Shown here: in pieces, positions 4,598 through 21,351 of the stretch | How positions within the stretch are numbered: the stretch's first letter is position 1 | Layout: every line of letters starts with the position of its first letter | NCBI GenBank assembly: GCA_002084425.1 | Contig: NBLN01000010.1 | Coordinates: forward strand, 1-64,000 | Source: Desulfobacteraceae bacterium 4572_130 | GTDB lineage: Bacteria; Desulfobacterota; Desulfobacteria; Desulfobacterales; Desulfobacteraceae | DNA: 64,000 nt | Direction of reading: 5' to 3' | Program-made: the position numbers and the translations under genes | The notes under the pieces: generated by a model | Seen by the model: only the letters and a program-made list of their open reading frames with translations | What the model was told of the DNA's origin: nothing | The model's database searches: none

Positions 4598-6198
4598 TGG
4601 AAAGTAATCCTATTGTACTTATTGGTGCACTTATATATTTTTTAATTATTTTTTATATAGGTTGGACCTCTCGTAAGGCATCCATGGATGCTTCTGAATT
4701 TTATGTTGCTGGAAGAAAAGTAGGTCCCTTTGTAAATGGAAGTGCCCTTGCTGCAACATATTTCAGCCCTGCAAGTTTTCTTGGACTTCCTGCTTTTATT
4801 TTTATTCTAGGTTATCCTTTTTGGTGGGCTCTTGTTGGTATTATTGGTGGAATGCCAATTGCTACATTATTAACAGCTGCTCCCTTAAGAAAATATGCAC
4901 CAACATCATTTACAGATTATTATGCTGACCGCTATGAAACTAAGTGGATGAGATTATGGTCTGCAATTCCTACAATTATAGGTGGGTTTGCTTATGTTAT
5001 TCTTTCTATCGTAGGTACAGCTCTGTTTCTTCTTTGTATTCTAAAATTTAATTTTACTATTTCAGTTATTCTTGCCTCTGTTATTGTATTTACCTATGTT
5101 TATTTCGGAGGCATGGTTGCTACTACTTTTTCAACAGCTTTTCAGGGTATTGCAATGACCGTTGCTGCTGTTGTGGCAGCTGGGTATGTTATTGGTCATT
5201 ATGGCGGATTAAATGGTCTTACAGATGCGGTAATATCAACTAGTCCTAATTTTTTCAACATGCCTTACGTAGCCGAAAAAGCGTCGCATCCTTTAATGGC
5301 GACATGGACCGGTGTCATTGGTTTTTTCTTTGTATGGCATTTTGGTTTTTCTGCAATGCCTTATACTGTTGTTAGATTTTTCACAACTCAGGATATTAAA
5401 TCTGCAAGAAGAAGTGTCTTTTGGGCGGTTTTAATTGGCGGAGCAATGTACGGTGGACTCATTATTATCGGAACAGGAGCAAGAGTTTTGATAGAACAGC
5501 TTCATCCTCTTATGGCAACTGATGGAGTTACAAATGCTATGGGTCTTTTAAAGCATATGAAAACAGCCTATGGCGTTGCAGGAGCATCTGTTACGGATTA
5601 TTCAATGATATCGGCTATGGAAGCACTGAAAAGTCCGTTCTTGCTTGCTATTATTGCAGCAGGTGGTCTTGCCATAGCAATGGCTACAGCTGCAGGCTGG
5701 ACAATGGTTTTAAATGTTGTTCTTGGAAGGGATCTTATTGGTAAAGTTTTTGGTTCAAAATGGCCAGAAGAAAAACCGGTTGCCTGTACAAGAGTTATGA
5801 CAATATTCATTATCGTTGTCTGCGGATTGCTTTCATTCAAACCGCCAGCACTTGTTCTTGATATATCGGGAGCTGCATTTGTTGTTATTTTATGCTCTGT
5901 TGGACCTCCACTTGTTCTTGGTCTGTGGTGGGAAAGAGGCACAACACTGGCAGCATCTTTAACTATTATAGTTATGACAATTTGTTCGACAAGTTCGTGG
6001 ATGTATGCAAAATATCATCTCGGAAGTTATCATTGGTTTTTTCTGAGCGACCCTGCAAATAAAATATCAACACCTCATCAGTTTTATTGGGTATTTATTG
6101 GGTTTATTTTTTATATTCTAATAAGTTTAATTACTCCAAAAAATAGTGATGAAGCAATTCAAAAATATGTTAAAGATTTAAAACCTGAACAATTATAA
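4597..6198 (+). CDS. SSS-family Na+/solute symporter
   Basis: A 533-residue polytopic membrane protein, about 13 helices, with the solute:sodium symporter signatures SRKASMDASEFYVAGRKVG near the N-terminus and GWTMVLNVVLGRDL in the middle. Relatives include acetate, pyruvate and pantothenate permeases. The small subunit just upstream and acyl-CoA ligases on both sides suggest a short-chain or other carboxylate as substrate; this is inference. A hairpin terminator follows at 6210-6256. Confidence 0.88.
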   Translation: MESNPIVLIGALIYFLIIFYIGWTSRKASMDASEFYVAGRKVGPFVNGSALAATYFSPASFLGLPAFIFILGYPFWWALVGIIGGMPIATLLTAAPLRKYAPTSFTDYYADRYETKWMRLWSAIPTIIGGFAYVILSIVGTALFLLCILKFNFTISVILASVIVFTYVYFGGMVATTFSTAFQGIAMTVAAVVAAGYVIGHYGGLNGLTDAVISTSPNFFNMPYVAEKASHPLMATWTGVIGFFFVWHFGFSAMPYTVVRFFTTQDIKSARRSVFWAVLIGGAMYGGLIIIGTGARVLIEQLHPLMATDGVTNAMGLLKHMKTAYGVAGASVTDYSMISAMEALKSPFLLAIIAAGGLAIAMATAAGWTMVLNVVLGRDLIGKVFGSKWPEEKPVACTRVMTIFIIVVCGLLSFKPPALVLDISGAAFVVILCSVGPPLVLGLWWERGTTLAASLTIIVMTICSTSSWMYAKYHLGSYHWFFLSDPANKISTPHQFYWVFIGFIFYILISLITPKNSDEAIQKYVKDLKPEQL

Positions 6199-6209
6199 TA
6201 TTAATTTGT

Positions 6210-6256
6210 TAACCTCCCTTTTAATTTTTTTTTAAATTTTAAAGGGGAGGTTTTTA
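6210..6256 (+). terminator. Rho-independent terminator after the symporter
   Basis: AACCTCCC pairs with GGGGAGGTT across an AT-rich loop, followed by TTTTT. It separates the symporter pair from the second ligase gene, whose ribosome site begins about 15 bp later, so some readthrough is possible. Confidence 0.6.
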
Positions 6257-6278
6257 ATTTATAACTTGGGAGAAAAAT

Positions 6279-7958
6279 ATGCAGATTCCAGAAATTGAAA
6301 TAGGTAAAACAACAATTAGTGATCTTGTTGATATTCTTGCCAATAATTTCGGGGAAAACAAAGCACTTACATATAATAGTTATGGAATTAATAATAATTT
6401 TAAAGAATTTAGAGATATATGTGATGATGTAGCAAAAGGACTTATTGGACTTGGTATTGAAAAGGGTGAAAACATTGCTGTCTGGGCAAATAATGTTCCT
6501 GAATGGGTTTATACTCAATATGGCAGTGCAAGAGCTGGAGCTGTTCTTGTAACAGTTAATACAAGTTATAAAAGCTTTGAACTTGAATATCTTATGAAGC
6601 AATCTGATTCTACAACCCTTATAATGATAGGCGGTGTTAGAGAACCTGATGAATATAAAAAAGTTGTAAAGGAATTATATCCAGAAATTGATAATGCAGC
6701 TCCGGGAAATATCAAATGTGAAAAACTTCCCAAGCTTAAAAATATTATTTACATTGGCAAAGATGATATGAAAGGAGCTTTATCCTGGAATGATCTGCTT
6801 GAGGCTGGCAGAAAAGTATCAGATAAAGAATTACAACAAAGAAAAAGCACTCTTAAACCTGAAGATGTTATTAATATGCAATATACATCAGGAACAACAG
6901 GTTTTCCAAAAGGTGTTATGCTTTCTCATACAAATCTTATTGGAAATGCAAAAAGCATGGCAGAATGTATGAAATTATCTCCAAAGGATGTTATGTGTAT
7001 TCCTGTTCCATTTTTTCATTGCTTTGGATGTGTTATAGGAACCTTATGCTGTATGGTATCAGGAACTACAATGGCACCTGTTGTTGCATTTGAGCCTCAG
7101 GATGTTATGCAGACAATTGATAAGGCAAAAGCTTCTGTTATTCTTGGGGTTCCAACAATGTTTATTGCAGAACTTGAGGAAATGGATAAAACAAATTATG
7201 ACACTTCAAACTTAAGAACTGGTGTAATGGCTGGTTCTCCATGTCCTATTGAAGTAATGAAGTCTGTTGTAAATAAAATGGGTGCTTCTGAAATGACAAT
7301 TGTTTATGGTCAAACAGAAGCTTCTCCTGGAATTACTCAAACAAGGGCTGAAGATTCACTTGAACTTCGTGTTACAACTGTTGGAAGAGCTCTTCCTGGT
7401 GTTGAAGTTAAAATTATTGACCCGATTACAGGAAAAGAACTTGAGTCTGGAGAACAGGGCGAACTTTGTAGCCGTGGTTATAATACCATGAAAGGTTATT
7501 ATAAAATGGAGGAAGCAACAAAAGGAGCTGTTGATTCTGACAACTGGCTTCATACTGGTGATCTTGCTATTATGGATGGAAATGGTTATTGCAAAATCAC
7601 AGGTAGAATAAAAGATATGATTATTAGAGGTGGTGAAAATATTTATCCAAGAGAAATTGAAGAATTTCTTTATACTAATGATAAAATTAAAGATGTGCAG
7701 GTTGTTGGAGTTCCAAGCAAAAAATATGGTGAGGAAGTTGCAGCATTTATTCAGCTAAAACCTGAAATTAAAGCATCAGAACAAGAAATAAGTGATTTTT
7801 GTCAAAATAAAATAGCATTTCATAAAATACCTAAATTTTTCTTTTTTGTTGAAGAATATCCAACTACAGCAAGTGGTAAAATTCAGAAATATAAATTGCG
7901 GGAACAAGTAACAGCTTCTCTTAATAGACAAGAAGATGCAGATATAGAAACAGCATAA
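6279..7958 (+). CDS. AMP-forming acyl-CoA synthetase (FadD-like)
   Basis: A 559-residue adenylate-forming enzyme. Motifs are YTSGTTGFPKG near residue 202, VYGQTEASPG, HTGDLAIMDGNG, GRIKDMIIRGGENIYPREIE, and the catalytic lysine in TTASGKIQKYKLR near the C-terminus. The GGENIYP signature and the insertion near residues 130-160 fit fatty-acid or medium-chain acyl-CoA ligases. It differs clearly from the first ligase, so the two probably have different substrates or expression. GGGAG ribosome site 7 bp before the ATG. Confidence 0.88.
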   Translation: MQIPEIEIGKTTISDLVDILANNFGENKALTYNSYGINNNFKEFRDICDDVAKGLIGLGIEKGENIAVWANNVPEWVYTQYGSARAGAVLVTVNTSYKSFELEYLMKQSDSTTLIMIGGVREPDEYKKVVKELYPEIDNAAPGNIKCEKLPKLKNIIYIGKDDMKGALSWNDLLEAGRKVSDKELQQRKSTLKPEDVINMQYTSGTTGFPKGVMLSHTNLIGNAKSMAECMKLSPKDVMCIPVPFFHCFGCVIGTLCCMVSGTTMAPVVAFEPQDVMQTIDKAKASVILGVPTMFIAELEEMDKTNYDTSNLRTGVMAGSPCPIEVMKSVVNKMGASEMTIVYGQTEASPGITQTRAEDSLELRVTTVGRALPGVEVKIIDPITGKELESGEQGELCSRGYNTMKGYYKMEEATKGAVDSDNWLHTGDLAIMDGNGYCKITGRIKDMIIRGGENIYPREIEEFLYTNDKIKDVQVVGVPSKKYGEEVAAFIQLKPEIKASEQEISDFCQNKIAFHKIPKFFFFVEEYPTTASGKIQKYKLREQVTASLNRQEDADIETA

Positions 7959-7986
7959 AATTATTAATTGCTAATTGCTAATGGTT

Positions 7987-8097
7987 ATATGCAAGATAAA
8001 ATAGAGCAGTTTTTTTGAAAAATTTCTTTTTAAAATGCGTAACCTTAAGAGATACGCTTATAAAAAAAATTATTTAATAACAATTTATCTTGCATAT
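7987..8097. repeat. inverted repeat with 14-bp perfect arms
   Basis: ATATGCAAGATAAA at 7987-8000 is exactly reverse-complemented at 8084-8097, with about 83 bp between. A smaller inverted pair (GCGT/ACGC) lies inside. It fills the gap after the second ligase and has no coding content. It could be a miniature transposable element or a large regulatory or terminator hairpin; no second copy was noticed in the window. Confidence 0.5.
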
Positions 8098-8302
8098 GAC
8101 TGGTATTTGTTAAAATACAGGGAATAAAAATCGTCAAATAAGAATAATGATACAAAGATTAGGAAATAAAGAGTTAAAAATCTTAAAAGAATAAGAATAG
8201 GAAGTATAAAACTTTCTAATTTAAAAGAAGGACAATAGCGATATCTTAATTTAACTGAAATTGAAACTCTTATTTTTAAGATACAAAGGAAAAATAATAA
8301 AA

Positions 8303-8491
8303 ATGAGAAATACATGGAAAGATTTTTTTGTTGGGTGTTTTACCGTGATATTAATATTATTATTAATTCCTGTATTTTTTCTATTTGGTAAAGCGGCATT
8401 CTTGATGGCTGTTCTAATCGCTATTGTTGTGTGCATTCTTTTTGGATTTGTTTTTATTGGTAAATTTGTACAATTCTTTTTCAGAAAATAG
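8303..8491 (+). CDS. small two-helix membrane protein, unknown function
   Basis: A 62-residue product starting MRNTWKDFF with two strongly hydrophobic segments (about residues 8-28 and 32-54). The ATG at 8303 is preferred over an in-frame TTG at 8261 because AAAGGA precedes it, although the spacing is long. No family recognised. It stands alone between the ligase and a convergent CNB-domain gene. Confidence 0.5.
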   Translation: MRNTWKDFFVGCFTVILILLLIPVFFLFGKAAFLMAVLIAIVVCILFGFVFIGKFVQFFFRK

Positions 8492-8553
8492 GAAATAAGA
8501 AAAATCAAAATAAAGTTATATATGCTAAAGAATTTAATACCCTTTAAAATTTT

Positions 8554-9027
8554 TTATGCTTTTTTTATTTCAGGGTGGTTAGTAAGGAAGTGTAAAAATT
8601 GTCTGGTATGTTTAACTAAACGGGATTTAAAAAACTGTGCGGTTTGTAAAAGAATTAAATAACTAATATCTTTTTCTTTTTTAAACAGATCTTTCATTTT
8701 TTTGCTTGAAAGAGTTATGATTGTGCTTGGCTCAGCACATACAGCAGTAAAGGAACTTAGCTCATTATCAAGAAAAGCAGAAGCACCAAAGGAATATCCT
8801 GGAATAATTTCATCTAATGTAAGTATTTTTCCTCCAGGTGATGTGGTGTTTAACAATACTTTTCCCTTTAAAACCATATAAAAGCTGGAAAGTTCTTTGT
8901 TTTGCCTGAATAATACTTGGTTTGCTTTAAAGTTCTGGATATCTGCTGCTGGTTTGATTTTTTCAAGTATTTCTGCATTAATATTTTTAAAAAATAATAT
9001 TTGTTTTAATTCTTCTTTTTTTATCAT
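8554..9027 (-). CDS. cyclic-nucleotide-binding-domain protein (no DNA-binding domain)
   Basis: A 157-residue protein consisting of one cNMP-binding beta-barrel (Crp/Fnr-type sensor domain): FKANQVLFRQNKELSSFYMV, GKVLL, PGYSFGASAFL, and AVCAEPSTIITLS. The phosphate-binding cassette lacks the canonical Arg before Ala, so it may not bind cAMP. There is no C-terminal helix-turn-helix; a short helix ends the protein. A paralogue of similar layout is encoded just upstream. The pair follows the antiporter operon on the same strand, so it may be part of, or regulate, that system, but this is conjecture. Confidence 0.75.
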   Translation of the reverse strand: MIKKEELKQILFFKNINAEILEKIKPAADIQNFKANQVLFRQNKELSSFYMVLKGKVLLNTTSPGGKILTLDEIIPGYSFGASAFLDNELSSFTAVCAEPSTIITLSSKKMKDLFKKEKDISYLILLQTAQFFKSRLVKHTRQFLHFLTNHPEIKKA

Positions 9028-9068
9028 TGCTATAACCTATAAGTTAAGAATTCTCAAAAAGTTTAAAT

Positions 9069-9578
9069 TTAAAATATAGAGAGAGTAAGAGATTTTAAAT
9101 CATCAGCTTGATTTTTTAATTCAGGATTTTCATCTAGGATAGTCATAATCATTTTTATTCTATTATTCATTTTTTGCTTATAACTTCTAGCCAGCCTTAG
9201 CATAATTTCGTAACCAAATTCATTGTTATCCTGGAAAAGCTGCATCATTCTTTGTCCCGGAAGAGTAATTATTTCACATGGCTCTTGACATATTGCTGAT
9301 GAGAAAACCTTTGCTTTAGGAACTAATGAGGACAAACCAAAGCAGGAGCCTGATTGAATTGTTTCCAGTGTTACAGTAATTTTAGAAGAAAGTTTAACTT
9401 CCATGGAAATCTGTCCCATGAGAAGCATATAAAAATTATCAACAATATCATTTTCTTTAAATAATTGTTTTTTTGTACTAAAAATACTTATTTGAGCCTC
9501 AGCACCAATAATTTCCAGTAAATTATCCGGCATATCTTTAAATAAATTTATTCGTTTAAATTCCTGAATTTTGATCAT
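9069..9578 (-). CDS. cyclic-nucleotide-binding-domain protein (paralogue)
   Basis: A 169-residue protein with the same single CNB-domain layout as its downstream neighbour: opening MIKIQEFKRINLFKDM, barrel strands STKKQLFKENDIVDNFYMLLMG, SGSCFGLSSLV, and ICQEPCEIITLPG. No HTH domain. The C-terminal helix (KQKMNNRIKMIMTILDENPELK) matches the neighbour's NHPEIK ending, supporting a tandem duplication. The two genes are 41 bp apart. The ligand and partner are unknown. Confidence 0.75.
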   Translation of the reverse strand: MIKIQEFKRINLFKDMPDNLLEIIGAEAQISIFSTKKQLFKENDIVDNFYMLLMGQISMEVKLSSKITVTLETIQSGSCFGLSSLVPKAKVFSSAICQEPCEIITLPGQRMMQLFQDNNEFGYEIMLRLARSYKQKMNNRIKMIMTILDENPELKNQADDLKSLTLSIF

Positions 9579-9602: not shown

Positions 9603-9658
9603 GATAGGCAAGTAAAAAGCTTTCCAGAACTAGGGAGAAGAATTTTTACGACGCCATC
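9603..9658. repeat. dispersed repeat family 2, internally deleted copy
   Basis: A 56-bp copy retaining both ends of the element seen in full at 47707-47834: GATAGGCAAGTAAAAAGC at one side and TTTTTACGACGCCATC at the other. The right end encodes the last residues Met-Ala-Ser and the TAA stop of the antiporter subunit gene on the minus strand. Confidence 0.7.
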
Positions 9659-11418
9659 AATATTAGAATAATAAAAAAACATGCAACAGCTGCTCCTATT
9701 CCAATGGGCAAAGTACTTTCCATTATATCATCATAAAGTTTGTTTTTCTTAATATCCAAATGTTTATCTCTGTATCCCATAATTAACCAAAAACTTACAA
9801 ATAAAAATAAAGCAAGTTTTGCAAAGGCATTTTTAAAAAAATTTGTTAAAAATTTAGCACTGCCTATAACAAATCCATCTGCTATTTTATTAATATTATT
9901 TAATACAATATCAAAAATTTTATAAGCAAATCCGCCTGTTTTACGGTAGATCCAGTCAATATCAAGATTTTTTGCTTTAATTTCAGGGATATAATATCCT
10001 GAGCAAATAAGAAGAGTAAATGCAAAGGCACCAAACATAAGAAGTTGTAGTTGTCCTACCACATGCATTCCTGTGTATGGTTGATAATGAACAGGATATG
10101 GAAGAAGATTATATAAAGGTGCTGGATAAACTCCAACAAATATACATATAAAAGCTGCAATACCCATTGCTAATAGCATGTTCCATGGTGGTTCTTTGGC
10201 TCTTATTCCTGAATCATGTCCAAAAAATGTAAAAAATGGAACTTTAATTCCTGCATGATCTACAACTCCAGTTGAAGCAAACTGAAGAATAAGCCATAAG
10301 GCAACTATTTTTTCAGCACCTGAAGCACTGATAATCATGGATTTACTCACAAATCCGCTAAAAAAAGGAAAAGCTGAAATAGAAGCAGCACCCACTATAC
10401 AAAGCAGACAAGTTATGGGCATGGTTTTATATAATCCGCCAAGTTCAGTACATTTTATTTTTCCAGTCATTTGTAAAACTGAACCTGCTACCATAAAAAG
10501 AAGGGCTTTATAAATAATATGACAAAAAGCATGGGCAACAGCACCATTAATTGCAAGTTCAGTACCTATACCAATTCCGCATAACATAAAACCAACCTGG
10601 TTTAGCAAGCTATAAGATAAAACTCTACGAATATCATTTTCCAGAACTGCATAAAATATAGGTAAGGAAACCATAAGTCCCCCAATCCAGATAAGGGGAG
10701 TTGCACCGGGAAAAGTTCTGATAAAAAGATAAACAGCACTTTTTGTAGTAAATGCACTTAAAAATACTGTACTTGTTGGTGTACCATTTGGGTAGGCATC
10801 TGGAAGCCATGCGTGTAAGGGAATAGCAGCTGCATTAAGAGCAATTCCAATAAAAATAAGATATGACTCAATTCCATCAAGTCCAATATAATTAAATTTA
10901 GCAGATCCTGTTTTATGTATATAAAGAATAATACCTGCAAGTAAAATTAATCCACCTATAAGATGAACAAGAATATATCGAAACCCAGCATTTTTAGCTT
11001 CTTTGGTTCTAGCTGCAAGTATTAAAAAAGTAGAGCTTACAGCCATAAATTCCCAGAAAATATAAAGTGAGAAAAAATCACCTGCAAACACTACTCCAAG
11101 TGTACTTCCCACATAAATAAATGCTGCCACATGCTGTAAATTATCTTTTACTTTTAAAGCAAAAAGAACTCCTATAAAAGCCATAATAGTAAAAACATAA
11201 CCAAATAACATTGATAGTTTATCTATTCTGCCAAGAATAAGCTCATATCCCCAGAACTCAAAAGTCCAAAAATTGCCATAGGGAAGTTTAATCAGCATGG
11301 AAAAAACCAGCACAGGCAAAATAAGCATATACCAGGATTTGATTTTTCCCCGTAAAAAAGGAACCAGGATTGCTCCAAAAATTAATAGTACTGCTGGAGG
11401 AAGCATATTATTTATCAT
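9646..11418 (-). CDS. Mrp/NuoL-type proton-translocating antiporter subunit
   Basis: A 590-residue polytopic membrane protein of the proton-conducting (NuoL/M/N, MrpA/D) family, with the family core around VFAGDFFSLYIFWEFMAVSS, a lysine-containing channel segment near AIPLHAWLPDAYPNGTPTS, and HAFCHIIYKALLFM. The ATG at 11418, preceded by AGAGG, is a better start than an in-frame TTG at 11442. It overlaps the preceding small gene by 11 bp. A C-terminal extension adds a last helix. The final residues Met-Ala-Ser come from a family-2 repeat end. It is the third antiporter-type subunit of this operon. Confidence 0.85.
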   Translation of the reverse strand: MINNMLPPAVLLIFGAILVPFLRGKIKSWYMLILPVLVFSMLIKLPYGNFWTFEFWGYELILGRIDKLSMLFGYVFTIMAFIGVLFALKVKDNLQHVAAFIYVGSTLGVVFAGDFFSLYIFWEFMAVSSTFLILAARTKEAKNAGFRYILVHLIGGLILLAGIILYIHKTGSAKFNYIGLDGIESYLIFIGIALNAAAIPLHAWLPDAYPNGTPTSTVFLSAFTTKSAVYLFIRTFPGATPLIWIGGLMVSLPIFYAVLENDIRRVLSYSLLNQVGFMLCGIGIGTELAINGAVAHAFCHIIYKALLFMVAGSVLQMTGKIKCTELGGLYKTMPITCLLCIVGAASISAFPFFSGFVSKSMIISASGAEKIVALWLILQFASTGVVDHAGIKVPFFTFFGHDSGIRAKEPPWNMLLAMGIAAFICIFVGVYPAPLYNLLPYPVHYQPYTGMHVVGQLQLLMFGAFAFTLLICSGYYIPEIKAKNLDIDWIYRKTGGFAYKIFDIVLNNINKIADGFVIGSAKFLTNFFKNAFAKLALFLFVSFWLIMGYRDKHLDIKKNKLYDDIMESTLPIGIGAAVACFFIILILMAS

Positions 11419-11653
11419 AGTAATCCTCTTTACGCATGACAATTTTTCTTAAAATTTTAGCGACAAAAATCAAAAATACATATGAAATAAAACCATATAC
11501 AGCATAGAAACCTGGGAAATCTTCCCATGCAAAACCATGATGTTTATGAATAAAAAATTCTGACACTAGCAAAAGCACAAGTGTGATATAAAAGAAAATT
11601 CTGAATTTTCCCACATTTTTGGGGTTATCAAATATTGTTAATTCTTTTTTCAT
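11408..11653 (-). CDS. small membrane protein in the Mrp-type operon
   Basis: An 81-residue protein with two predicted helices (about residues 18-35 and 48-68) and charged ends. It overlaps the following antiporter subunit by 11 bp, so the two are translationally coupled. No named family recognised; position suggests an accessory subunit of the antiporter complex. Confidence 0.65.
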   Translation of the reverse strand: MKKELTIFDNPKNVGKFRIFFYITLVLLLVSEFFIHKHHGFAWEDFPGFYAVYGFISYVFLIFVAKILRKIVMRKEDYYDK

Positions 11654-11692
11654 TATTTTTTGTCCTAATTATATTTATCTTCACCATAAAGC

Positions 11693-12085
11693 TCATGTAA
11701 GTAAGGGCATTTTAGGGAGGACAATTTTATTAGATTTTTCGTTTTTATATGCAGATATTTTATTTAAAATTGGTTCTTTTTTAATCATACAAAAGCCAAC
11801 AAACTTATCAGCAGGAACCGCCAATCTAATTGCAATGGGAAGCATTTCATAAACTTTTTTAAACATTGCTTTTAAAATTGTATCATTATTTAGATTATTT
11901 TCAGCTAGAGTTAATAATTTCTCTACAACAATTTTCTCTATGCTTTGCCATTTTTTTTCAATAATTTTATTAGTTCTATTTTTACTGGAACTAATTATGT
12001 TTTCGGCTGTTTGCTTTGTGTCGCTGATTTTTGTCTTTATATCAACTTTTAAATTCTTTGCTTTATTTGCTATTTTTTTAAACAT
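11693..12085 (-). CDS. hypothetical protein within the Mrp-type operon
   Basis: A 130-residue protein, Lys-rich and probably alpha-helical over the first 70 residues (coiled-coil-like, charged), followed by a more hydrophobic middle (MLPIAIRLAVPADKFVGFCMI). No signal peptide and no recognised motif. It lies in line with the operon, 40-70 bp from each neighbour, without overlap. Codon use matches the surroundings. Function unknown. Confidence 0.55.
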   Translation of the reverse strand: MFKKIANKAKNLKVDIKTKISDTKQTAENIISSSKNRTNKIIEKKWQSIEKIVVEKLLTLAENNLNNDTILKAMFKKVYEMLPIAIRLAVPADKFVGFCMIKKEPILNKISAYKNEKSNKIVLPKMPLLT

Positions 12086-12155
12086 ATGATTTCTTTTATT
12101 TTTTTAAAAGTATCAAACAACCAGAAATTGTATTTTTATTACCTTATTAAAACCC

Positions 12156-12293
12156 TTAGCTTGCTGCAAAAACATATATAAAATAAATTACAGCAATTGC
12201 GATAATTATATGGAATGCTGTTTTATATCCCGGCAAAGCTTTATGCTGAAGAATTTCCCATTCCATGTTTTCTTTTATATTAGAATTAGTCAT
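12156..12293 (-). CDS. 45-residue single-helix membrane protein
   Basis: A short gene starting MTNSNIKENMEWEILQHKAL with one strong C-terminal helix (AFHIIIAIAVIYFIYVFAA). An in-frame ATG four codons upstream (12305) is an alternative start. It sits between antiporter subunit genes of the same strand and has the amphipathic-then-hydrophobic shape of small respiratory-complex subunits. It is real if conserved in relatives; I see no frame disruption. Confidence 0.55.
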   Translation of the reverse strand: MTNSNIKENMEWEILQHKALPGYKTAFHIIIAIAVIYFIYVFAAS

Positions 12294-12320
12294 TTTTTTA
12301 TCCATTCAATATTTTAATTT

Positions 12321-13796
12321 TTAAATACCTAAGGCTATTTTAATTAAATTAATAAAAACATTTGGGGTAAAAAATAATATAACTGATATTATTGCTGTAA
12401 TAACTATTGGAATAACACAAAACAAAGGAGCTTCTTTTATTTGTACTGGCAGATTTTGTTCTTTTTCATCTTTTGAGAAAAATGCTTGATAAATTATAGG
12501 CAGAAAATAAAAGGCATTTAAAAATGAGCTGAGTAAAAGCACAATAAGAAAAAGTTTTTGAGTTGATTCAATAGTACCAATAAGAATAAACCATTTACTA
12601 AAAAAACCACCTGTTGGAGGTAAGCCAATAACTCCAAGGGCGCCAATAAAAAAAGCTGCAAATGTTATGGGCATTTGTTTGCCCAGTCCCTTCATTTGAC
12701 TGATATATTTTTTTCCGGTTGCTACAAAAATTGCTCCTGCACAGAAAAAAAGAGTTATTTTACCAAAAGCATGCATAACAATATGAATAATACCGCCAAG
12801 CTGTCCCTGGGGTGTTAGCAATGCAACACCAAGAATTATATAGGAAAGCTGACTAACAGTTGAAAATGCCAGGCGTCTTTTTAATTCATCTTGGGACATG
12901 GCAATACAAGAACTGACTATTATTGTAATAGATGCCAGAGATGCAACAACAACTCCAAGATTAAAAGACGCTAGAAGATCAATGCCAAAGATACAAACTA
13001 TAACTCGTACAATACTGAAAACACCAACTTTAACCACAGCAACAGCATGGAGAAGTGCGCTAACAGGGGTAGGAGCAACCATTGCAGCTGGAAGCCAGGA
13101 ATGAAAGGGCATTAACCCCGCCTTTGCAAAACCAAAAACAAACATTAAAAGTACAACAGTTAAAGCAGGTTTTGATATTTGACCTGATGCAAATATACCA
13201 TGAATGGAAAAATCCAGGGTTCCTGTAATATGGTAACAATAGAGCATGGCAGGTAAAACCAAGGCAATAGATGTACCAAGTATAAAGATAAGATATCTGC
13301 GACCAGATATTCTTGATTTTTTATCTTGATGATGAGTAACTAGGGGATATGTTGCAAGGGATAAAATTTCATAAAAAAGATAAAGTGTAAGCAGATTAGC
13401 TGAAAATGCTACGCCAATTGTTGCAAATATTGCCAAAGCAAAAAAACAATAGTATCTGGTTTGACCATGTTCATTCAAGGTTCTCATGTATCCAATGGAA
13501 TACATACTTGTTACAATCCACAAAGATGATGCAACAATGGCAAAAAGCATGCCTAATCCATCAACCTTAAAGGCAATAGAAACTCCAGAAGCTATTTCAA
13601 ACATATTAAATACAATTTTATTGCCAGCCAAAATAGCAGGAAGCATGGAAAGAACAAGAAGAAATTTTACTCCTCCTGCAATAAAAGTACAACTTTCCCT
13701 AATATTTGGTTTTTTAGAAGTAACTATTAAAAAGGGAATAACAGCCAAAGAAACTAAAACAGTCAACAAAGGCTTAATTGAAGTAATATAATCCAT
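12321..13796 (-). CDS. NuoN/MrpD-type antiporter subunit
   Basis: A 491-residue protein of the proton-conducting membrane transporter family, about 14 helices. Core segments include FSANLLTLYLFYEILSLATYPLV (conserved Glu in the fifth helix), GLMPFHSWLPAAMVAPTPVS, and SQDELKRRLAFSTVSQLSYI (lysine half-channel region). It follows mrpD in the operon with a 37-bp gap. Together with two other large subunits it gives this complex three antiporter modules. The ion used, Na+ or H+, cannot be told from sequence. Confidence 0.85.
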   Translation of the reverse strand: MDYITSIKPLLTVLVSLAVIPFLIVTSKKPNIRESCTFIAGGVKFLLVLSMLPAILAGNKIVFNMFEIASGVSIAFKVDGLGMLFAIVASSLWIVTSMYSIGYMRTLNEHGQTRYYCFFALAIFATIGVAFSANLLTLYLFYEILSLATYPLVTHHQDKKSRISGRRYLIFILGTSIALVLPAMLYCYHITGTLDFSIHGIFASGQISKPALTVVLLMFVFGFAKAGLMPFHSWLPAAMVAPTPVSALLHAVAVVKVGVFSIVRVIVCIFGIDLLASFNLGVVVASLASITIIVSSCIAMSQDELKRRLAFSTVSQLSYIILGVALLTPQGQLGGIIHIVMHAFGKITLFFCAGAIFVATGKKYISQMKGLGKQMPITFAAFFIGALGVIGLPPTGGFFSKWFILIGTIESTQKLFLIVLLLSSFLNAFYFLPIIYQAFFSKDEKEQNLPVQIKEAPLFCVIPIVITAIISVILFFTPNVFINLIKIALGI

Positions 13797-13833
13797 TAAT
13801 TACTAACCTTCTTATATTGTAAATTTAGATTTT

Positions 13834-15351
13834 TTATATCACCATTTTATATTGAGTAAGAAAAGGTGTAATAATATTTTTTACAATTGAATCAGAATAA
13901 ACACCCAAAATAATTAAAGTAGCACTTGTTAAACCAAGAGAAATAAGCATTGAAACTGGTGCCTCAGTTATTCCAGCTATTTTGTCATGATTCTTATGTT
14001 CATTTTGTTGCTTATTTTGTATTGATGATTCAAAAAATGATATTTCAAATATTTTGAAAAAAAGAATAGCACATATTAAACTACTTATAATTAAAGCACC
14101 TACAAAATGGTAAGCTCCTGCTTCAATACCACCAAGAATTAAATACCACTTGCTAAAAAAACCGCATGTTGGAGGTACACCTATTATACTAAAACCAGCA
14201 AGAACAAGACCTGCCATTGTCCAGGGCATTTTACTAAATAACCCCTTAAAATTATTAAGATGAGCATTTTTAAGACAAAATGTAATATTTCCAACAACTA
14301 GAAAAAGAGCAAAAGTCATAACAGCATCATTTATAATATGAAGAATAGATCCTGTCATACCAGTTTGATTTCCCAGCCATGCTCCACCAACCATATATCC
14401 AATTTCAGAAACAATAATATAAGCAAAAATTTTTTTTACATTTTTTTGTGCAAGGGCCATAACACCCCCTGCTATGATAGCAATACTTGCAATCCAAACA
14501 ACTACCTTTGAAAGTTCAAGTGTTTCAAAAATATAATTAAAGCCAAAAACATTAAGCATTAGTCTTATCATTACATATACCATAATTTTTGTCATCAAAG
14601 GAGCAATTAGTCTGCCTACTGAGATAGAAGTATAGGAATAGGCATTTGGAAGCCAAATATGTAAAGGGAAAAGTGCCATTTTAATCCATAGACCTAGCAT
14701 GCAGAAAATAAAGCCAATCAATACTGCACTTGAGCCATGTAAATTCTGAAGAATATCTGCAACATTAATCATATTTAAGGAGCCTGTCATAATATAAAGA
14801 TAACCAACTCCAAGAAGATAAAAACTTGCTCCTATTACTCCTATAAAAAGATAATTTAAACTTGCAATGGGACTGCGGTCAGGATCTCCCATAGCAATTA
14901 AAGCATAGCTAGTAAGTGATGTTATTTCTAAAAGTACATATAGATTAAATAAATCACCGGTTGCAACCACACCAAGAAGTCCAGTAACAAATAAAACATA
15001 AACAGAATAGAATGCTCCAAGTTTTTCCTTCATATCCTGCAAAACACTTTTATGACTTGCAACAAGATTAATCAGAGCTATTGCTGAAACTATTAAAAGT
15101 ACAACAGCATTTAAAAGATCAATTCTATATTCTATGCCAAAGGGTGGTGCCCAGCCTGCCATACGATATTGAATTGTTCCAGAGGTTAAAACAATCATTA
15201 AAAGTTTAAATGCTGAAAACAAAGAGATTGCAAGACCTACCAGTACAATAGGATAACAGAATTTTTTTTGTATCCAGCTGAAACCACTGCATAAAAGAGC
15301 AGCTAGAAGGGGAGCAATAACAAGTAAAGCAGGATAAAATGTTTTTATCAT
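13834..15351 (-). CDS. mrpD: Mrp antiporter subunit D
   Basis: A 505-residue polytopic membrane protein with the MrpD/NuoM pattern: VVATGDLFNLYVLLEITSLTSYALIA (conserved Glu), KMALFPLHIWLPNAYSYTSIS, and the lysine-bearing MALAQKNVKKIFAYIIVSEIGYM. MrpD is a large subunit of the multisubunit Na+/H+ antiporter. It begins 3 bp after mrpC ends. A polar His/Asn-rich loop near residue 455 is a local peculiarity. Confidence 0.87.
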   Translation of the reverse strand: MIKTFYPALLVIAPLLAALLCSGFSWIQKKFCYPIVLVGLAISLFSAFKLLMIVLTSGTIQYRMAGWAPPFGIEYRIDLLNAVVLLIVSAIALINLVASHKSVLQDMKEKLGAFYSVYVLFVTGLLGVVATGDLFNLYVLLEITSLTSYALIAMGDPDRSPIASLNYLFIGVIGASFYLLGVGYLYIMTGSLNMINVADILQNLHGSSAVLIGFIFCMLGLWIKMALFPLHIWLPNAYSYTSISVGRLIAPLMTKIMVYVMIRLMLNVFGFNYIFETLELSKVVVWIASIAIIAGGVMALAQKNVKKIFAYIIVSEIGYMVGGAWLGNQTGMTGSILHIINDAVMTFALFLVVGNITFCLKNAHLNNFKGLFSKMPWTMAGLVLAGFSIIGVPPTCGFFSKWYLILGGIEAGAYHFVGALIISSLICAILFFKIFEISFFESSIQNKQQNEHKNHDKIAGITEAPVSMLISLGLTSATLIILGVYSDSIVKNIITPFLTQYKMVI

Positions 15352-15354
15352 AAT

Positions 15355-15765
15355 TTATTTTTCCCTTAATCTCATTCTGATTTCATCTTCTTCCAAAGTC
15401 TGATATCTTTGATAAATTTTTACTGACAAAGCAAGGGCTACTCCAAAAGTGGCAACTGAAACAACAATTGCTGTAAGCATAAGCACATGGGGCAGAGGAT
15501 TTATATAATCAGCTGCATGAATTATAAGTTTATGAGCACCAGTACCATGATCTCCATGGGCATTTTTTATAATTGGAATAGTTGCATTAGTTTTATAGCC
15601 TATTGAAATATAAAAAAGAATAATGGCTGTTTGAAAAATATTCATTCCCACTATTTTTTTTATGAGATTATTTTTAACAATCATGGCATAAAGACCAATC
15701 ATCATTAAAATTATATAAAGCCAATAATTATATTTTGTCATAATTCCAATAAAAAAATCAGTCAT
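15355..15765 (-). CDS. mrpC: Mrp antiporter subunit C (NuoK-like)
   Basis: A 136-residue protein with three helices matching MrpC/NuoK: YNYWLYIILMMIGLYAMIV, VGMNIFQTAIILFYISIGY, and PHVLMLTAIVVSVATFGVALAL. The loop between helices 2 and 3 is extended, as in MrpC compared with NuoK. It sits between the fused B subunit (9 bp upstream) and mrpD (3 bp downstream), the standard order. Confidence 0.87.
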   Translation of the reverse strand: MTDFFIGIMTKYNYWLYIILMMIGLYAMIVKNNLIKKIVGMNIFQTAIILFYISIGYKTNATIPIIKNAHGDHGTGAHKLIIHAADYINPLPHVLMLTAIVVSVATFGVALALSVKIYQRYQTLEEDEIRMRLREK

Positions 15766-15774
15766 AGTCCTCTC

Positions 15775-16599
15775 CTACAATCCTTCATCATGCCTTCCTT
15801 CTGATGCTATATTAACATATATTACAACCATAACAGCCATAACAGCTATGCCAACACCTATTTCAACTCCTAACATACCCAGTGCTCTGACATGAATAGG
15901 ATCAACAGGTAAAATTTTTGCAAGTTGGCTATAATCTAAAAAGTTACCACCAAGAAACATACAAATAATACCTATACCAACATATATTAGCACTCCAAGA
16001 GCACTTAATAGACCAAGTATTTTTTCTTTAATTTTTTTCATGGCTGTTTGCAGATTATATGAGATAGCAAGTAAAATAAAACTTGACCCAAAAATAACCC
16101 CACCTTGAAATCCTCCTCCAGGACTAAAATCACCATGGGCAACAACATACAAAGCATATATTTGAATAAAAGGAATTAAAATCCTGCAAACAGTCATTAT
16201 TATTAAGTCATGGGGTATCCAATCTGCATCCATTTGTTCAAATTTTTTGCTTGCTGGAAGATTCTTGCAGTTATCTTTAAAACATAAAACTACTCCTGTT
16301 GAAATATGCCTGTAAAAAAATTTTTTTTGTCTGTTATAGTTTCTAAGAAGAAGAAAGCATACAAGACCTGCACAAAAAATTACTGCTGTTTCAAACATAG
16401 TGTCAAAACTACGATAATCAGCAAGCACTGATGTAACTAGATTTGGAACACCTGTTTCTTCAATGGATTTTTCAATATAGTGATTAGAAAGATAAGTGCT
16501 TGCAGGAGATTGTGAATATCCCCAGTCAGGAAAATCAGAAGTAGCACTAAGCAGAATTCCACCACAAACAGCAACTATTAATAATCCAATATATTTCAA
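15775..16599 (-). CDS. fused MbhE-like/MrpB antiporter subunit
   Basis: A 274-residue membrane protein with two joined parts. Residues 1-90 resemble the MbhE-type domain (YRSFDTMFETAVIFCAGL), which in MrpA forms the C-terminal extension. Residues 125-270 match MrpB/MnhB (RILIPFIQIYALYVVAHGDFSPGGGFQGGVIFG). Such fusions are known in Mrp-like complexes lacking a full MrpA. It overlaps the MbhD-like gene by 4 bp. Confidence 0.82.
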   Translation of the reverse strand: MKYIGLLIVAVCGGILLSATSDFPDWGYSQSPASTYLSNHYIEKSIEETGVPNLVTSVLADYRSFDTMFETAVIFCAGLVCFLLLRNYNRQKKFFYRHISTGVVLCFKDNCKNLPASKKFEQMDADWIPHDLIIMTVCRILIPFIQIYALYVVAHGDFSPGGGFQGGVIFGSSFILLAISYNLQTAMKKIKEKILGLLSALGVLIYVGIGIICMFLGGNFLDYSQLAKILPVDPIHVRALGMLGVEIGVGIAVMAVMVVIYVNIASEGRHDEGL

Positions 16600-16841
16600 T
16601 CTTTTGTTCTCCTAGTTGTATTAAAAACAGCGGCAACAAAAAATACCGTGCTTACGCCTGCTCCTACCGAGGCTTCTGTAAAAGCAACATCAACAGCCCC
16701 CATAATTGCCCATAAAAGACACATCATAAAACTATAAGCACCAAATAATATTGCTGTACTTAACAAGTCCTTAACAGAAATTGCAGTGATTGCACAAAGA
16801 ATAACAAATATCAGAACTATTAAATCTATTTGCCAGGGCAT
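16596..16841 (-). CDS. MbhD-like (DUF4040) antiporter subunit
   Basis: An 81-residue, three-helix protein matching the MbhD/DUF4040 domain: TAISVKDLLSTAILFGAYSF and GAVDVAFTEASVGAGVSTVF. In canonical MrpA this domain is part of the large subunit; here it is a separate gene, as in membrane-bound hydrogenases. It ends inside the start of the next gene and follows mrpG closely. Confidence 0.85.
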   Translation of the reverse strand: MPWQIDLIVLIFVILCAITAISVKDLLSTAILFGAYSFMMCLLWAIMGAVDVAFTEASVGAGVSTVFFVAAVFNTTRRTKD

Positions 16842-16845
16842 GATT

Positions 16846-17166
16846 TTACCTTTTATCCTCTTTTGTCCAGTGTCTGAGACCTGCTCTTATACCTGCATCA
16901 ACAATGGAATGAGTTGCTGTTGGGCTTGACAAAAATACAAAAAATACAATTAATAACATTTTTATACTTAGTAAGAGTTCTGATATGGAAAAAGTTTTAA
17001 GATTAAAAAGAGCAAATCCTAGAACCATTGCAAGTATTCCAAGTGTGTCTAATTTTCCTGCTGGATGAAGCCTACTATAAAAATCAGGCATTCTAATAAT
17101 TCCCACCGCTCCTCCAGTAAAAAAAACTAGACCTATAATTAAAAATAATAAAACAAAGAAATTCAT
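16846..17166 (-). CDS. mrpG: Mrp antiporter subunit G
   Basis: A 106-residue, three-helix protein with the MnhG/PhaG signature GAVGIIRMPDFYSRLHPAGKLDT followed by the LG-rich second helix. It lies 12 bp after mrpF and 4 bp before the MbhD-like gene. Confidence 0.88.
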   Translation of the reverse strand: MNFFVLLFLIIGLVFFTGGAVGIIRMPDFYSRLHPAGKLDTLGILAMVLGFALFNLKTFSISELLLSIKMLLIVFFVFLSSPTATHSIVDAGIRAGLRHWTKEDKR

Positions 17167-17178
17167 ATTAACTCCATC

Positions 17179-17466
17179 TTATTTAAGGGTGGATTCTTCG
17201 TATAACCCTTTTCTTTTATGAAAATATCTGGAAGCTGCCACAACTGTAATAAAATTTAAAAATGCATAGGCTAAAGCTATATCAATAAACATGTCCACAC
17301 GTTCATAAATAAAACCAATAAGCAAAAGCAGAATAACTGTTTTACTGCCAATGGCATTAACTCCTATTAATCTGTCCAAAACTGTTGGCCCAAACATAGC
17401 TCTATATAAAGAGAAAAGCATTAAAAAACATAAATATAGACTTGTATAAAGAAAAAAAGTATTCAT
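17179..17466 (-). CDS. mrpF: Mrp antiporter subunit F
   Basis: A 95-residue, three-helix protein with the MrpF motif RAMFGPTVLDRLIGVNAIG and DIALAYAFLNFITVVAASRY. Its ATG overlaps the stop of mrpE by 4 bp, so translation is coupled. Confidence 0.88.
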   Translation of the reverse strand: MNTFFLYTSLYLCFLMLFSLYRAMFGPTVLDRLIGVNAIGSKTVILLLLIGFIYERVDMFIDIALAYAFLNFITVVAASRYFHKRKGLYEESTLK

Positions 17467-18008
17467 TTGTCTTCTCCAAATATCCTGGCGGTTTTTTTAA
17501 GCATTGTGCCGGGAAGTGCTTCAGCAGACTCTTTATCAATGGAATGTACTTTAAAAACTCCTTCCCTATCAGCATTAATTGTAATTGTACCTGGAGTCAG
17601 AGTAATAGAATTAGCCATAGTAACAATTGACATTTCTTTTTTTAATCCAGTTTTTATAACTACTACATGGGGATCAATCATATCTTTCATTCTTGGATGA
17701 AAAACAAGGTATAAAAGGTGAAAGTTAGCTTTAATTATTTCAAAAATAAGCCATGGTATATATTTAAAAAAACGAAACATAATTAATAAAAAATCAGAAT
17801 CAGGATCTGAGAATAAAAGATCCTTAAAAAAGAATGCACATAAAAAACTTGAAAAAAGACCCAAAAAGATAAGCAGAGGTTCAAAATTACCTGAAAGAAT
17901 CACCCACAAACCAAACATTAATATAAAGGTAAGGGAAAAAGATAATATTGATTTAAAAGGTTTGCCAGAAGATTTGTTTTTAAATTCTTTTTTTTCTGAG
18001 ATAGTCAA
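17463..18008 (-). CDS. mrpE: Mrp antiporter subunit E
   Basis: A 181-residue protein with a helical N-terminal region and the MrpE core DPHVVVIKTGLKKEMSIVTMANSITLTPGT, then a soluble C-terminal part. It appears to be the first gene of the operon, which reads mrpE-F-G-mbhD-(mbhE/B)-C-D and then two further antiporter subunits. The start is TTG at 18008, chosen because AAGGA stands 7 bp upstream. Family-1 repeat copy B lies directly upstream. Confidence 0.85.
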   Translation of the reverse strand: MTISEKKEFKNKSSGKPFKSILSFSLTFILMFGLWVILSGNFEPLLIFLGLFSSFLCAFFFKDLLFSDPDSDFLLIMFRFFKYIPWLIFEIIKANFHLLYLVFHPRMKDMIDPHVVVIKTGLKKEMSIVTMANSITLTPGTITINADREGVFKVHSIDKESAEALPGTMLKKTARIFGEDK

Positions 18009-19296: not shown

Positions 19297-21351
19297 ATGC
19301 TTAAATCAGTTTTTTTAATGGGTGGACTTGGATTTGTTATAGGTGGAATTTTAGCCTTTGCTTCAAAGATATTTTATGTTTATGTTGATCCTAAAATTGT
19401 TGCCATAGAAGATGTGTTGCCAGGAGCAAACTGTGGGGGGTGTGGTTTTCCAGGATGTACTCCAAATGCAGAAGCTATTGTTCAAGGTAAAGCATCAGCA
19501 GATTCATGTGTTGCAGCAGGTCCTGATGTTGCCATTGCAATTGCAGAACTTATGGGTGTATCTCTTGAAGAAAAAGAACCTGAATTTGCTCTTTCTTCCT
19601 GTTATTACAGTAAACAAGATGCAGATATTAAATATCTTTATGATGGAATAAAAGATTGCAGAGCTGCATCTATTATGTCTGGTGGCATGAAAGTTTGTAA
19701 TATTGGTTGTCTTGGACTTGGAACATGTGTAACAGCTTGTCTTTTTGGTGCTCTTTCAATGGGAGAAAATGGTCTTCCTAAAGTTAACGAAGAAAAATGC
19801 ACAGGATGTGGAGCATGTGAAAAAATATGTCCTAAAAATATTATTAAACTTACATCTATTACAAGAAGAATTATTCGTGAATATACTGAGGATGAATGTG
19901 TAACTCCATGTCAAAGAGCATGCCCCACAGGTATTGATATTAGAAAATATATTAATCTCATAAAAAATGGAGATAATAAAGGAGCACTTCAGGTAATTAA
20001 AGAAAGAAATCCTTTTCCATCTGTTATTGGAAGAATATGCCCTGCTTTTTGCGAGGTTGAATGCAGAAGGCAGCTTGTTGATGAACCTGTTGCGATAAAT
20101 CATTTAAAGCGATTTGTCAGTGATATTGAAATAAAACTTGGGAAAAGAGTTTTTCCATATAAAGCTCCAGACACAGGAAAAAAAATTGCTGTTCTTGGTG
20201 GAGGCGTAGAAGGACTATCTGCTGCATTTTTTACAGCAAGGCTTGGGCATGAGCCCACAGTATTTGAAACAACTTCTATTCTTGGTGGACTTTTAAGATT
20301 TGCAATTTCTGAATATAGACTTCCCCAGCATATTCTTGATTGGGATATTCAAGGAATTATTGAAATGGGAGTTAAGGTTAAAACAGATGTTAAAGTTGGA
20401 AAAGATATGTCTTTATCATCTTTTTTTAAATCTGGTTTTGACGCAGTTTTTACAGCAACAGGGGGATGGGATAATAGGCTTGTCAGGGATGAAATATCAG
20501 ATATAGTAAATATTTTTCCAGGAGGATATCTTTTAATTGATGTGCTTCGGAATAATATTAAAAATGAAAAAAATATTTCCTGGGGAAAAAATGTTGTAAT
20601 TGCAGGTGATGATATTATTATTTCTGATGCAATTAAGATTTGTATGGAATTTGGTACAGAATCCATTACAATTATATCAAGAAAGACAAAGGGAAATTCA
20701 TGTTTTAATAATTCACAATTTACTGTAAACAATAAAACTAAAATAATATATAATGCTGGAATAACAAAAATTTGTGGCAAGGAGGATAATCTAACTAATA
20801 TTGAATGCACAGATCTTACAACCGGAAATATAAGTGTTGTTAATGCTGATACTTTGGTAGTTACTTCTGGTAGATTTCCTGAATTTATTTTTACTAAAAC
20901 TAAAATATCTGATAATGAAGCTTCTGAATTAGACTTGGATTCTATACCATTAAAATGGGAAGGTGTTGAAATCCATAAGGATCCTGCAAATATACAAGAG
21001 CTTGGACTTTTATCAAATAGTGATATGATAAGTGGTTATAGTGCTGCTGTTAAAGCAATAAATGGTGGTCGTAAAGCTGCTGCAACAATTCATAATCTTA
21101 TCTATGGTATATCTTTGGAACATCCTTTAAATTTTATCACTAAATATTCTTATCTTCAAAAAGTTGATTGCCTTAAAAATGTTAAAGTATCACCAAGAAA
21201 TATTATGCCTGTATTTAATGATATTAAGGCAGAACCACAACATGAATTTTTACAGGGTTTTACTAGTGAAATGGCTCAGAAAGAATCTGAACGATGTCTG
21301 AAATGCGGATTGATTTGCTATGAACAATCACAACATAGCTCTGCTGCTTGA
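19297..21351 (+). CDS. RnfB-like Fe-S protein fused to a GltD-like FAD oxidoreductase domain
   Basis: A 684-residue two-part protein. Residues 1-190 match RnfB: an N-terminal membrane anchor (FVIGGILAFASKIFYV), the cluster motif NCGGCGFPGC, then a ferredoxin motif CTGCGACEKICP. Residues 200-675 match the glutamate-synthase small-subunit/NfnB fold: Fe-S motifs CVTPCQRACP and GRICPAFCEVEC, FAD motif VLGGGVEGLSAAF, and a C-terminal RCLKCGLICYE motif. The second dinucleotide site (VVIAGDDIIISDA) and the usual GD near the end are degenerate, so NAD(P)H binding is doubtful. No rnfCDGEA genes are nearby. It may link ferredoxin to a membrane partner. Confidence 0.8.
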   Translation: MLKSVFLMGGLGFVIGGILAFASKIFYVYVDPKIVAIEDVLPGANCGGCGFPGCTPNAEAIVQGKASADSCVAAGPDVAIAIAELMGVSLEEKEPEFALSSCYYSKQDADIKYLYDGIKDCRAASIMSGGMKVCNIGCLGLGTCVTACLFGALSMGENGLPKVNEEKCTGCGACEKICPKNIIKLTSITRRIIREYTEDECVTPCQRACPTGIDIRKYINLIKNGDNKGALQVIKERNPFPSVIGRICPAFCEVECRRQLVDEPVAINHLKRFVSDIEIKLGKRVFPYKAPDTGKKIAVLGGGVEGLSAAFFTARLGHEPTVFETTSILGGLLRFAISEYRLPQHILDWDIQGIIEMGVKVKTDVKVGKDMSLSSFFKSGFDAVFTATGGWDNRLVRDEISDIVNIFPGGYLLIDVLRNNIKNEKNISWGKNVVIAGDDIIISDAIKICMEFGTESITIISRKTKGNSCFNNSQFTVNNKTKIIYNAGITKICGKEDNLTNIECTDLTTGNISVVNADTLVVTSGRFPEFIFTKTKISDNEASELDLDSIPLKWEGVEIHKDPANIQELGLLSNSDMISGYSAAVKAINGGRKAAATIHNLIYGISLEHPLNFITKYSYLQKVDCLKNVKVSPRNIMPVFNDIKAEPQHEFLQGFTSEMAQKESERCLKCGLICYEQSQHSSAA

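Follow-up and report, generated by a model that had tools for sequence, protein, structure and literature searches.

An RnfB–GltD fusion clade that has lost its NADPH motif as a candidate electron partner of cytosolic formate dehydrogenase in sulfate-reducing bacteria

What is the role of an RnfB protein that is fused to a GltD-like flavoprotein with an altered NADPH site? This question is raised by a gene on the forward strand (19297–21351) of the first 64,000 nucleotides of contig NBLN01000010.1 from Desulfobacteraceae bacterium 4572_130 (GCA_002084425.1). We refer to this entire stretch of DNA as the window. A preliminary description, made from the sequence alone, had suggested that the encoded protein may not use NAD(P)H, and that it may act as a membrane ferredoxin hub or as an electron-bifurcation partner.

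The open reading frame is complete, begins with ATG and codes for 684 amino acids. Based on this frame, domain models and trees, we assign the protein to a clade of RnfB–GltD fusions without the NADPH motif. RnfB models cover residues 2–212 (TIGR01944 on the N-terminal half: 85.4 bits, cut-off 68.7), and GltD-like models (NCBIfam) cover residues 190–676. The Pfam matches are FeS (41–72), ferredoxin clusters (137–184), Fer4_20 (201–280) and a weak Pyr_redox_2 (296–529). A single hydrophobic helix at the N-terminus (residues 2–25, 19300–19371; 19-residue hydropathy maximum of 2.1 at residue 5) is predicted to be an RnfB-like membrane anchor. This helix is followed by the RnfB [4Fe-4S] domain (PF04060, residues 41–72, 19417–19512) with C46, C49, C54 and C71, and by two ferredoxin-type [4Fe-4S] motifs (residues 134–184, 19696–19848; Fer4 families on 137–184) with C134, C138, C144, C148, C168, C171, C174 and C178. 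All twelve cysteines are invariant in an alignment of 75 sequences. The GltD part starts with the Fe-S domain Fer4_20 (PF14691, E 2.9e-22; residues 201–280 including K271, 19897–20136) and continues with an intact FAD-binding Rossmann start (residues 294–336, GGGVEGLS...LGGLLR, 20176–20304). Near the C-terminus lies a C667LKCGLICY675 motif (21295–21321), of which C667, C670, C674 and Y675 each occur in at least 90% of the 75 aligned sequences. Among plasmid records, none covers 80% of the fusion protein.

The second dinucleotide site (residues 430–475, 20584–20721) is degenerate by motif alignment. Its core is AGDDIIISDA (residues 436–445, 20602–20631), exactly as first reported, and the NADPH-site pattern GGGNxAxD ... 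YRRxxxEMPA is absent from the window's fusion. For comparison, we kept 150 frames from relatives, excluding non-spanning frames and frames longer than 950 residues, and removed duplicates. The resulting 123 distinct fusions, a sample and not a census, comprise 41 members with an intact NADPH motif, 80 that have lost it and 2 partial cases. The aligned columns of the intact members contain G437 (41 of 41), G438 (40), G439 (41), N440 (41), A442 (41) and D444 (41). Six residues that are present in every intact member (N440, R447, R451, Y461, R463 and P469) are all missing in the window's fusion, which has aspartate at positions 438 and 439 and the similar residue lysine in place of R447 and R463. 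R462, the first arginine of the RR pair, is still present in the window's fusion. Among the 80 lost members it persists in 66, G437 in 72, G438 in 64 and G439 in 63. The FAD motif had been described as kept, and the glycines G301, G303, G306, G330 and G331 are indeed found in 80/80 lost and 41/41 intact members. The reported loss of the C-terminal GD motif is half right: in the FAD-side segment at residues 570–595 (21004–21081; alignment) G575 is replaced by serine, but D576 is still there (D in 61 and E in 17 of the 80 lost members).

We considered the possibility that the decay is private to the window's gene and rejected it, because the motif is lost in 80 of the 123 distinct fusions. Since the AGDDIIISDA change is common to the whole clade, it is neither a chance event nor peculiar to this gene. 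The suggestion that the protein may not use NAD(P)H is supported: the NAD(P)H port of the fusion is predicted to be probably dead, and the remaining second Rossmann domain would be structural.

A view of the gene as a one-off is not supported: it belongs to a clade-wide family represented by the 80 lost members. All 54 first-aligned sequences of the window's family, the window included, lack the NADPH motif, and when 395 genomes of the phylum were searched, 48 gave a match with an E value of 1e-100 or lower. The idea of an unusual single fusion was discarded, as orthologues were found in many families. In a tree of 93 rows calculated without the NADP-domain columns, 59 of the 60 lost rows and both partial rows lie on one side of a branch with 99 SH-aLRT support; the other side holds all 31 intact rows and one lost row, L082. 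In an outgroup-rooted tree of the GltD half (41 fusions and six other GltD-like proteins), the lost clade (99) is nested within intact members by forks with support of 93 and 86, and its nearest intact kin, L150 and L167, are both located in rnf operons. Because of these two topologies, a single early loss of the NADPH motif, together with an independent loss in L082, appears to be the most likely history. The lost clade spans many families. The L082 gene (469–2646 of that locus) is a second RnfB–GltD gene beside Rnf-Nqr genes in genome G050, with an NADPH site that decayed independently.

The fusion as such is not unusual either, contrary to the preliminary description. Passages of two papers describe the large RnfB of the Rnf2 complex of Desulfobacteraceae as a protein of about 700 residues with NAD+-binding sites (PMC5109826; PMC11887813). 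Like the window's protein, this RnfB (Desulfobacula toluolica/Desulfococcus multivorans type) joins an RnfB helix, an FeS domain and a ferredoxin domain to a GltD-like half, and the two share common ancestry on our trees. A second fusion family in 58 genomes (the window's own and 57 others), approximately 35–40% identical to the window protein, fits the Rnf2 description; we equate it with the Rnf2 RnfB by size, domain order and operon, not by published sequence. Rnf-Nqr genes lie within 0.2 kb of this paralogue in all 16 regions taken from relatives, a sample and not a census, and 15 of these regions carry the motifs G(G/S)GN(T/S)A(I/V)DC and YRRT(R/L)xEMPAN, the exception being L082. The intact family thus adjoins Rnf-Nqr genes and keeps the NADPH motif; the window's fusion does neither. 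By sequence and phylogeny, the window's fusion belongs to a paralogous clade distinct from the Rnf2 large RnfB, and the family is a genuine, widely distributed variant of a fusion type already known. In openly licensed PMC papers we found no description of a family without the NADPH motif.

The effect of motif loss on the protein can be followed domain by domain. In the lost set, mean pairwise identity is 0.59 for helix and linker, 0.75 for the RnfB FeS domain, 0.65 for the rest of RnfB, 0.65 for Fer4_20, 0.59 for the first FAD part, 0.41 for the second FAD part, 0.38 for the C tail and 0.30 for the NADP domain. The corresponding values for the intact set are 0.52, 0.69, 0.49, 0.68, 0.67, 0.56, 0.42 and 0.63. 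The drop from intact to lost members is greatest in the NADP domain, with a smaller drop in the second FAD part. Judged from these identities, the NADP domain of the lost members is relaxed, while the FAD and Fe-S ligands are retained. Cys201 is present in 80/80 lost members and missing in 20 of the 41 intact ones.

A structural model of the window's fusion (pLDDT 83.9, pTM 0.83) was compared with that of an intact control, L075 (pLDDT 76.8, pTM 0.73). By sequence and fold, the closest solved relatives of the GltD half are StnC from Sporomusa ovata StnABC and NfnABC chains (8OH5, 9BOV, 9N5U). The window model matches these chains with Z scores of 24.7–26.6 and rmsd values of 13.5–14.2 Å, and the control with Z scores of 31.7–34.0 and 8.0–8.4 Å; the placing of the NADP domain is unreliable in both comparisons. 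The exception is 9BOV, which the window model fits with an rmsd of 2.9 Å over 298 residues. RnfB from A. woodii is also a clear structural match (9eri_B; Z 12.8, rmsd 5.0 Å, 194 aligned residues). In the second site a beta-alpha-beta element is still predicted (strand 432–436, helix 442–451, strand 456–460).

Residues K271 and R341 of the fusion correspond to K170 and R239 of StnC. K271, beside the cluster next to the FAD, is conserved in 79/80 lost and 41/41 intact members. NfnB carries a glutamate at this position, according to passages of PMC10482914 and to an alignment with 5VJ7, so the fusion is not of the NfnB type at this site. According to the same passages, StnC includes a NuoG part and its NADPH site is functional, whereas the fusion has an RnfB membrane part in place of NuoG and no NADPH motif; they also term the FAD of StnC non-bifurcating. 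Bifurcation, if there is any, would therefore more likely take place in a NuoEF partner. For the proposed role as an electron-bifurcation partner, the evidence is indirect. Part of the fusion clade does have, like StnC, a HydBC-like NuoEF partner.

To describe the genomic context, we used neighbour profiles built on genes initially noted next to members of the window's family; the resulting counts are tuned to these neighbours and would miss partners found specifically with intact members. FdhA lies within 4.5 kb of 33 of the 80 lost members, NuoE/NuoF of 18 and Rnf-Nqr of 13; for the 41 intact members the counts are 1, 0 and 31. If a DRTGG gene is counted as well and partnerless loci near contig edges are dropped, a partner is nearby in 59 of 71 scorable lost members versus 1 of 33 intact ones. 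Eight of these 59 depend on the DRTGG gene alone, and the other 12 scorable lost members have no partner nearby. Since motif loss is essentially one event, the association with FdhA or NuoEF is not replicated on the tree: a phylogenetic test yielded two independent pairs only and had no power (sign test p = 1).

Two layouts predominate. In most loci of the window's family, FdhA is divergent from the fusion (upstream and codirectional in L111), and in other families the order is NuoE-DRTGG-NuoF-fusion-RseC. FdhA lies downstream of and codirectional with the fusion in L164, L149, L147 and L153. L164 reads rnfD, an rnfG-like gene, two Rnf-Nqr genes, fusion and FdhA; L149 reads two Rnf-Nqr genes, fusion, FdhA and DRTGG, with NuoF further along; and L147 has the same order as L149 by our neighbour profiles, from which, rather than from Pfam, its FdhA call derives. 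More generally, early-branching lost members are found in rnf operons, some with FdhA and two also with NuoF. Seven lost members (L138 and L140–L145) and one partial member (L139) have Rnf-Nqr and RseC nearby and neither FdhA nor NuoEF within 4.5 kb; these loci are a poor fit to a strict partnership with FdhA.

At the N-terminus the linked FdhA proteins resemble NuoG, and their genes carry an in-frame TGA where the selenocysteine codon is expected. This codon follows TNN(I/V)DHCAR(L/T) in 22 of 24 N-terminal FdhA frames; the other two are cut by contig ends. Their sequences identify these proteins as predicted selenocysteine enzymes. Several neighbouring genes were recorded in passing. Between the fusion and the DRTGG gene, L149 encodes (6176–9154) a formate dehydrogenase catalytic subunit of 992 residues with a C-terminal NuoE-like domain. 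In L097 (8130–11221), and at similar places in L090–L103, the fusion is often followed by a gene for approximately 650 residues and then one for approximately 307–330; in L097, the only locus scanned for this pair, the genes encode a hybrid histidine kinase and a manganese-type inorganic pyrophosphatase.

At the window itself, the statement that the fusion lies away from rnf genes is confirmed, as there is no rnf gene among the scanned neighbours. Extended to its relatives, it applies to the 62 closest lost members, which lack nearby Rnf-Nqr, but not to 12 more distant ones that have it; the link to FdhA was absent from that account. Searches of the window's own genome (G000, a 1.94 Mb assembly that is 80% complete) with PF02508 (Rnf-Nqr) and PF03116 (RnfD) gave no match. 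NuoE and NuoF are absent from the window locus. The genome does contain an FdhA orthologue with one in-frame TGA and 66–76% identity to the linked FdhAs, on contig C23 and hence unlinked to the fusion on C2. CdhD (C5) and dsrA (C21) are likewise not on C2. Divergent from the fusion, the window carries genes for a Mrp/Mnh-type cation/proton antiporter on the reverse strand (9646–18008; E, F, G, B, C and several D-like). We rejected this antiporter as a conserved partner, because its protein clusters were seen at none of the 54 loci compared except the window's own; many of these loci extend no more than 6 kb on a side. Elsewhere in the genome, locus L127 (3417–9171; C12:55416–61170) encodes NuoE, NuoF with extra ferredoxin domains and a 1086-residue NuoG-like/flavin/Fe-S protein; together these probably make up a further complex of the HydABC/Bfu-like kind.

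Across genomes, the fusion and FdhA occur together. With FdhA orthologues defined by a score of 480 bits or more, and with G010 of the 58 genomes set aside as ambiguous, 43 of 57 scorable genomes (the window's own included) contain both genes, 12 contain neither, two (G012 and G025) contain FdhA alone and none contains the fusion alone (Fisher p 1.3e-10, kinship ignored). Presence was called from fragments in G011, G014, G026, G041 and G052. Within genus g7, G027 has both genes, and G006, G015, G021 and G032 have neither orthologue; G021 shows a weaker FdhA-like match of 249 bits. CdhD also tracks the fusion, less well than FdhA does (p 6e-5), and in 16 hand-picked genomes where the two share a contig they are separated by 6–23 kb in 13 and by 165–557 kb in 3. 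The presence of Rnf-Nqr genes, which 42 of the 43 fusion-bearing genomes contain, shows no such association with the fusion (p 0.15).

Taken as a whole, we lean, with modest confidence, towards the view that the fusion is a membrane-tethered Fe-S/FAD wire that derives from an Rnf2-type large RnfB, has no direct NADPH chemistry and serves, we infer, a cytosolic FdhA. The suggested membrane ferredoxin hub agrees with this view, and a role as an electron hub tethered to the membrane is probable. The NuoG-like Fe-S domain of FdhA would pass electrons from formate to the Fer4_20 clusters and the FAD of the GltD part, and the RnfB clusters would in turn relay them either to ferredoxin or to an acceptor in the membrane, which would be the Rnf core where one is present. 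Alternatively, the flow may be reversed during CO2 reduction. A report that some formate dehydrogenase genes of Desulfobacterium autotrophicum are linked with hdrA/hdrL (PMC2702500) indicates that other partners exist.

Several other explanations deserve consideration. That the fusion still binds NAD(H) or NADP(H) through the altered site, as an NAD(P)H:ferredoxin-type oxidoreductase, would agree with the predicted beta-alpha-beta fold, the three glycines and R462 retained in most lost members, and the lysines that replace R447 and R463 in the window. Nevertheless, the absence of six residues that no intact member lacks, the aspartates at two of the glycine positions and the fall of NADP-domain identity to 0.30 across the lost set render this activity unlikely. 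The fusion could also be an alternative RnfB subunit that replaces the NADPH-linked one in the Rnf2 membrane core. The structural match to A. woodii RnfB and the near-constant presence of Rnf-Nqr in fusion-bearing genomes favor such a role, as do the 13 lost members with Rnf-Nqr within 4.5 kb: L082, which is outside the clade, nine early-branch rows, and three undrawn members (L141, L142 and L152) that are at least 80% identical to drawn rows. It is nonetheless improbable given that no Rnf-Nqr gene lies within 4.5 kb of any of the 62 lost members scoring at least 640 bits against the window protein (some of these loci are cut by contig ends), that PF02508 and PF03116 found nothing in the 80%-complete genome of the window, and that Rnf-Nqr does not track the fusion.

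The NuoE-DRTGG-NuoF-fusion-RseC order at several loci outside the window's family raises the question of whether NuoE, NuoF and the fusion together form a bifurcating enzyme of the Bfu/Stn-like kind. The fusion would be its third-substrate subunit, with the GltD FAD linked to the membrane instead of to NADPH. Bfu enzymes combine a HydBC-like bifurcating core with varied third-substrate subunits, and NuoE/NuoF likewise stand beside part of the fusion clade, 18 of the 80 lost members. The best structural matches of the fusion are NfnABC and StnC chains, and NuoF of L009 shows two features that passages of PMC10482914 present as hallmarks of StnB/HydB, a thioredoxin-like domain at the N-terminus and a ferredoxin-like one at the C-terminus. 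Formate dehydrogenase types of Bfu appear in passages of PMC9304861; these passages mention no Rnf-linked Bfu, and the main text contains "rnf" a single time, among the references. At loci of the window's family, however, NuoE/NuoF are not near the fusion, and the only NuoF found in the window's genome pairs with the different 1086-residue partner, which leaves this assignment a slim chance. Finally, the 1.94 Mb assembly, the separation of FdhA from the fusion and the GDD of the window, as opposed to GGG in most lost members, might suggest a decaying, functionless remnant in a small genome. With the frame intact, the relatives' invariant cysteines and FAD glycines in place and the fusion present in 43 of 57 scorable genomes, we judge this to be very improbable.

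It is possible, though doubtful at present, that the clade represents an undescribed class of Fdh-(NuoEF)-Rnf complexes, to which the one-operon versions in L149, L147 and L164 hint directly. The fusion would then be a junction that feeds electrons from formate (FdhA) and, where NuoEF is present, from NADH to an Rnf-type ion-pumping core, and in lineages with a split operon or a lost Rnf, such as that of the window, it would persist, tethering cytosolic formate dehydrogenase to the membrane and conducting its electrons. A related arrangement may be fdhF2 beside nfnB in Seep-SRB1g, where, according to passages of PMC10553843, a cytosolic formate dehydrogenase adjoins a GltD/NfnB-like gene and is predicted to be NADPH-linked and bifurcating; if this gene belongs to the same family, which is possible, its NADPH site would be dead. 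Genes of this kind may encode products without NADPH chemistry even where their annotation reads RnfB, NfnB or NADPH-dependent glutamate synthase. Complete-oxidising sulfate reducers oxidise acetyl-CoA via the Wood–Ljungdahl pathway, and for these organisms the family provides a concrete, widespread and testable candidate for the electron partner of cytosolic formate dehydrogenase. From operons in which rnf genes come together with the fusion, FdhA and NuoF, it seems that different electron inlets can be fitted to the Rnf pump.
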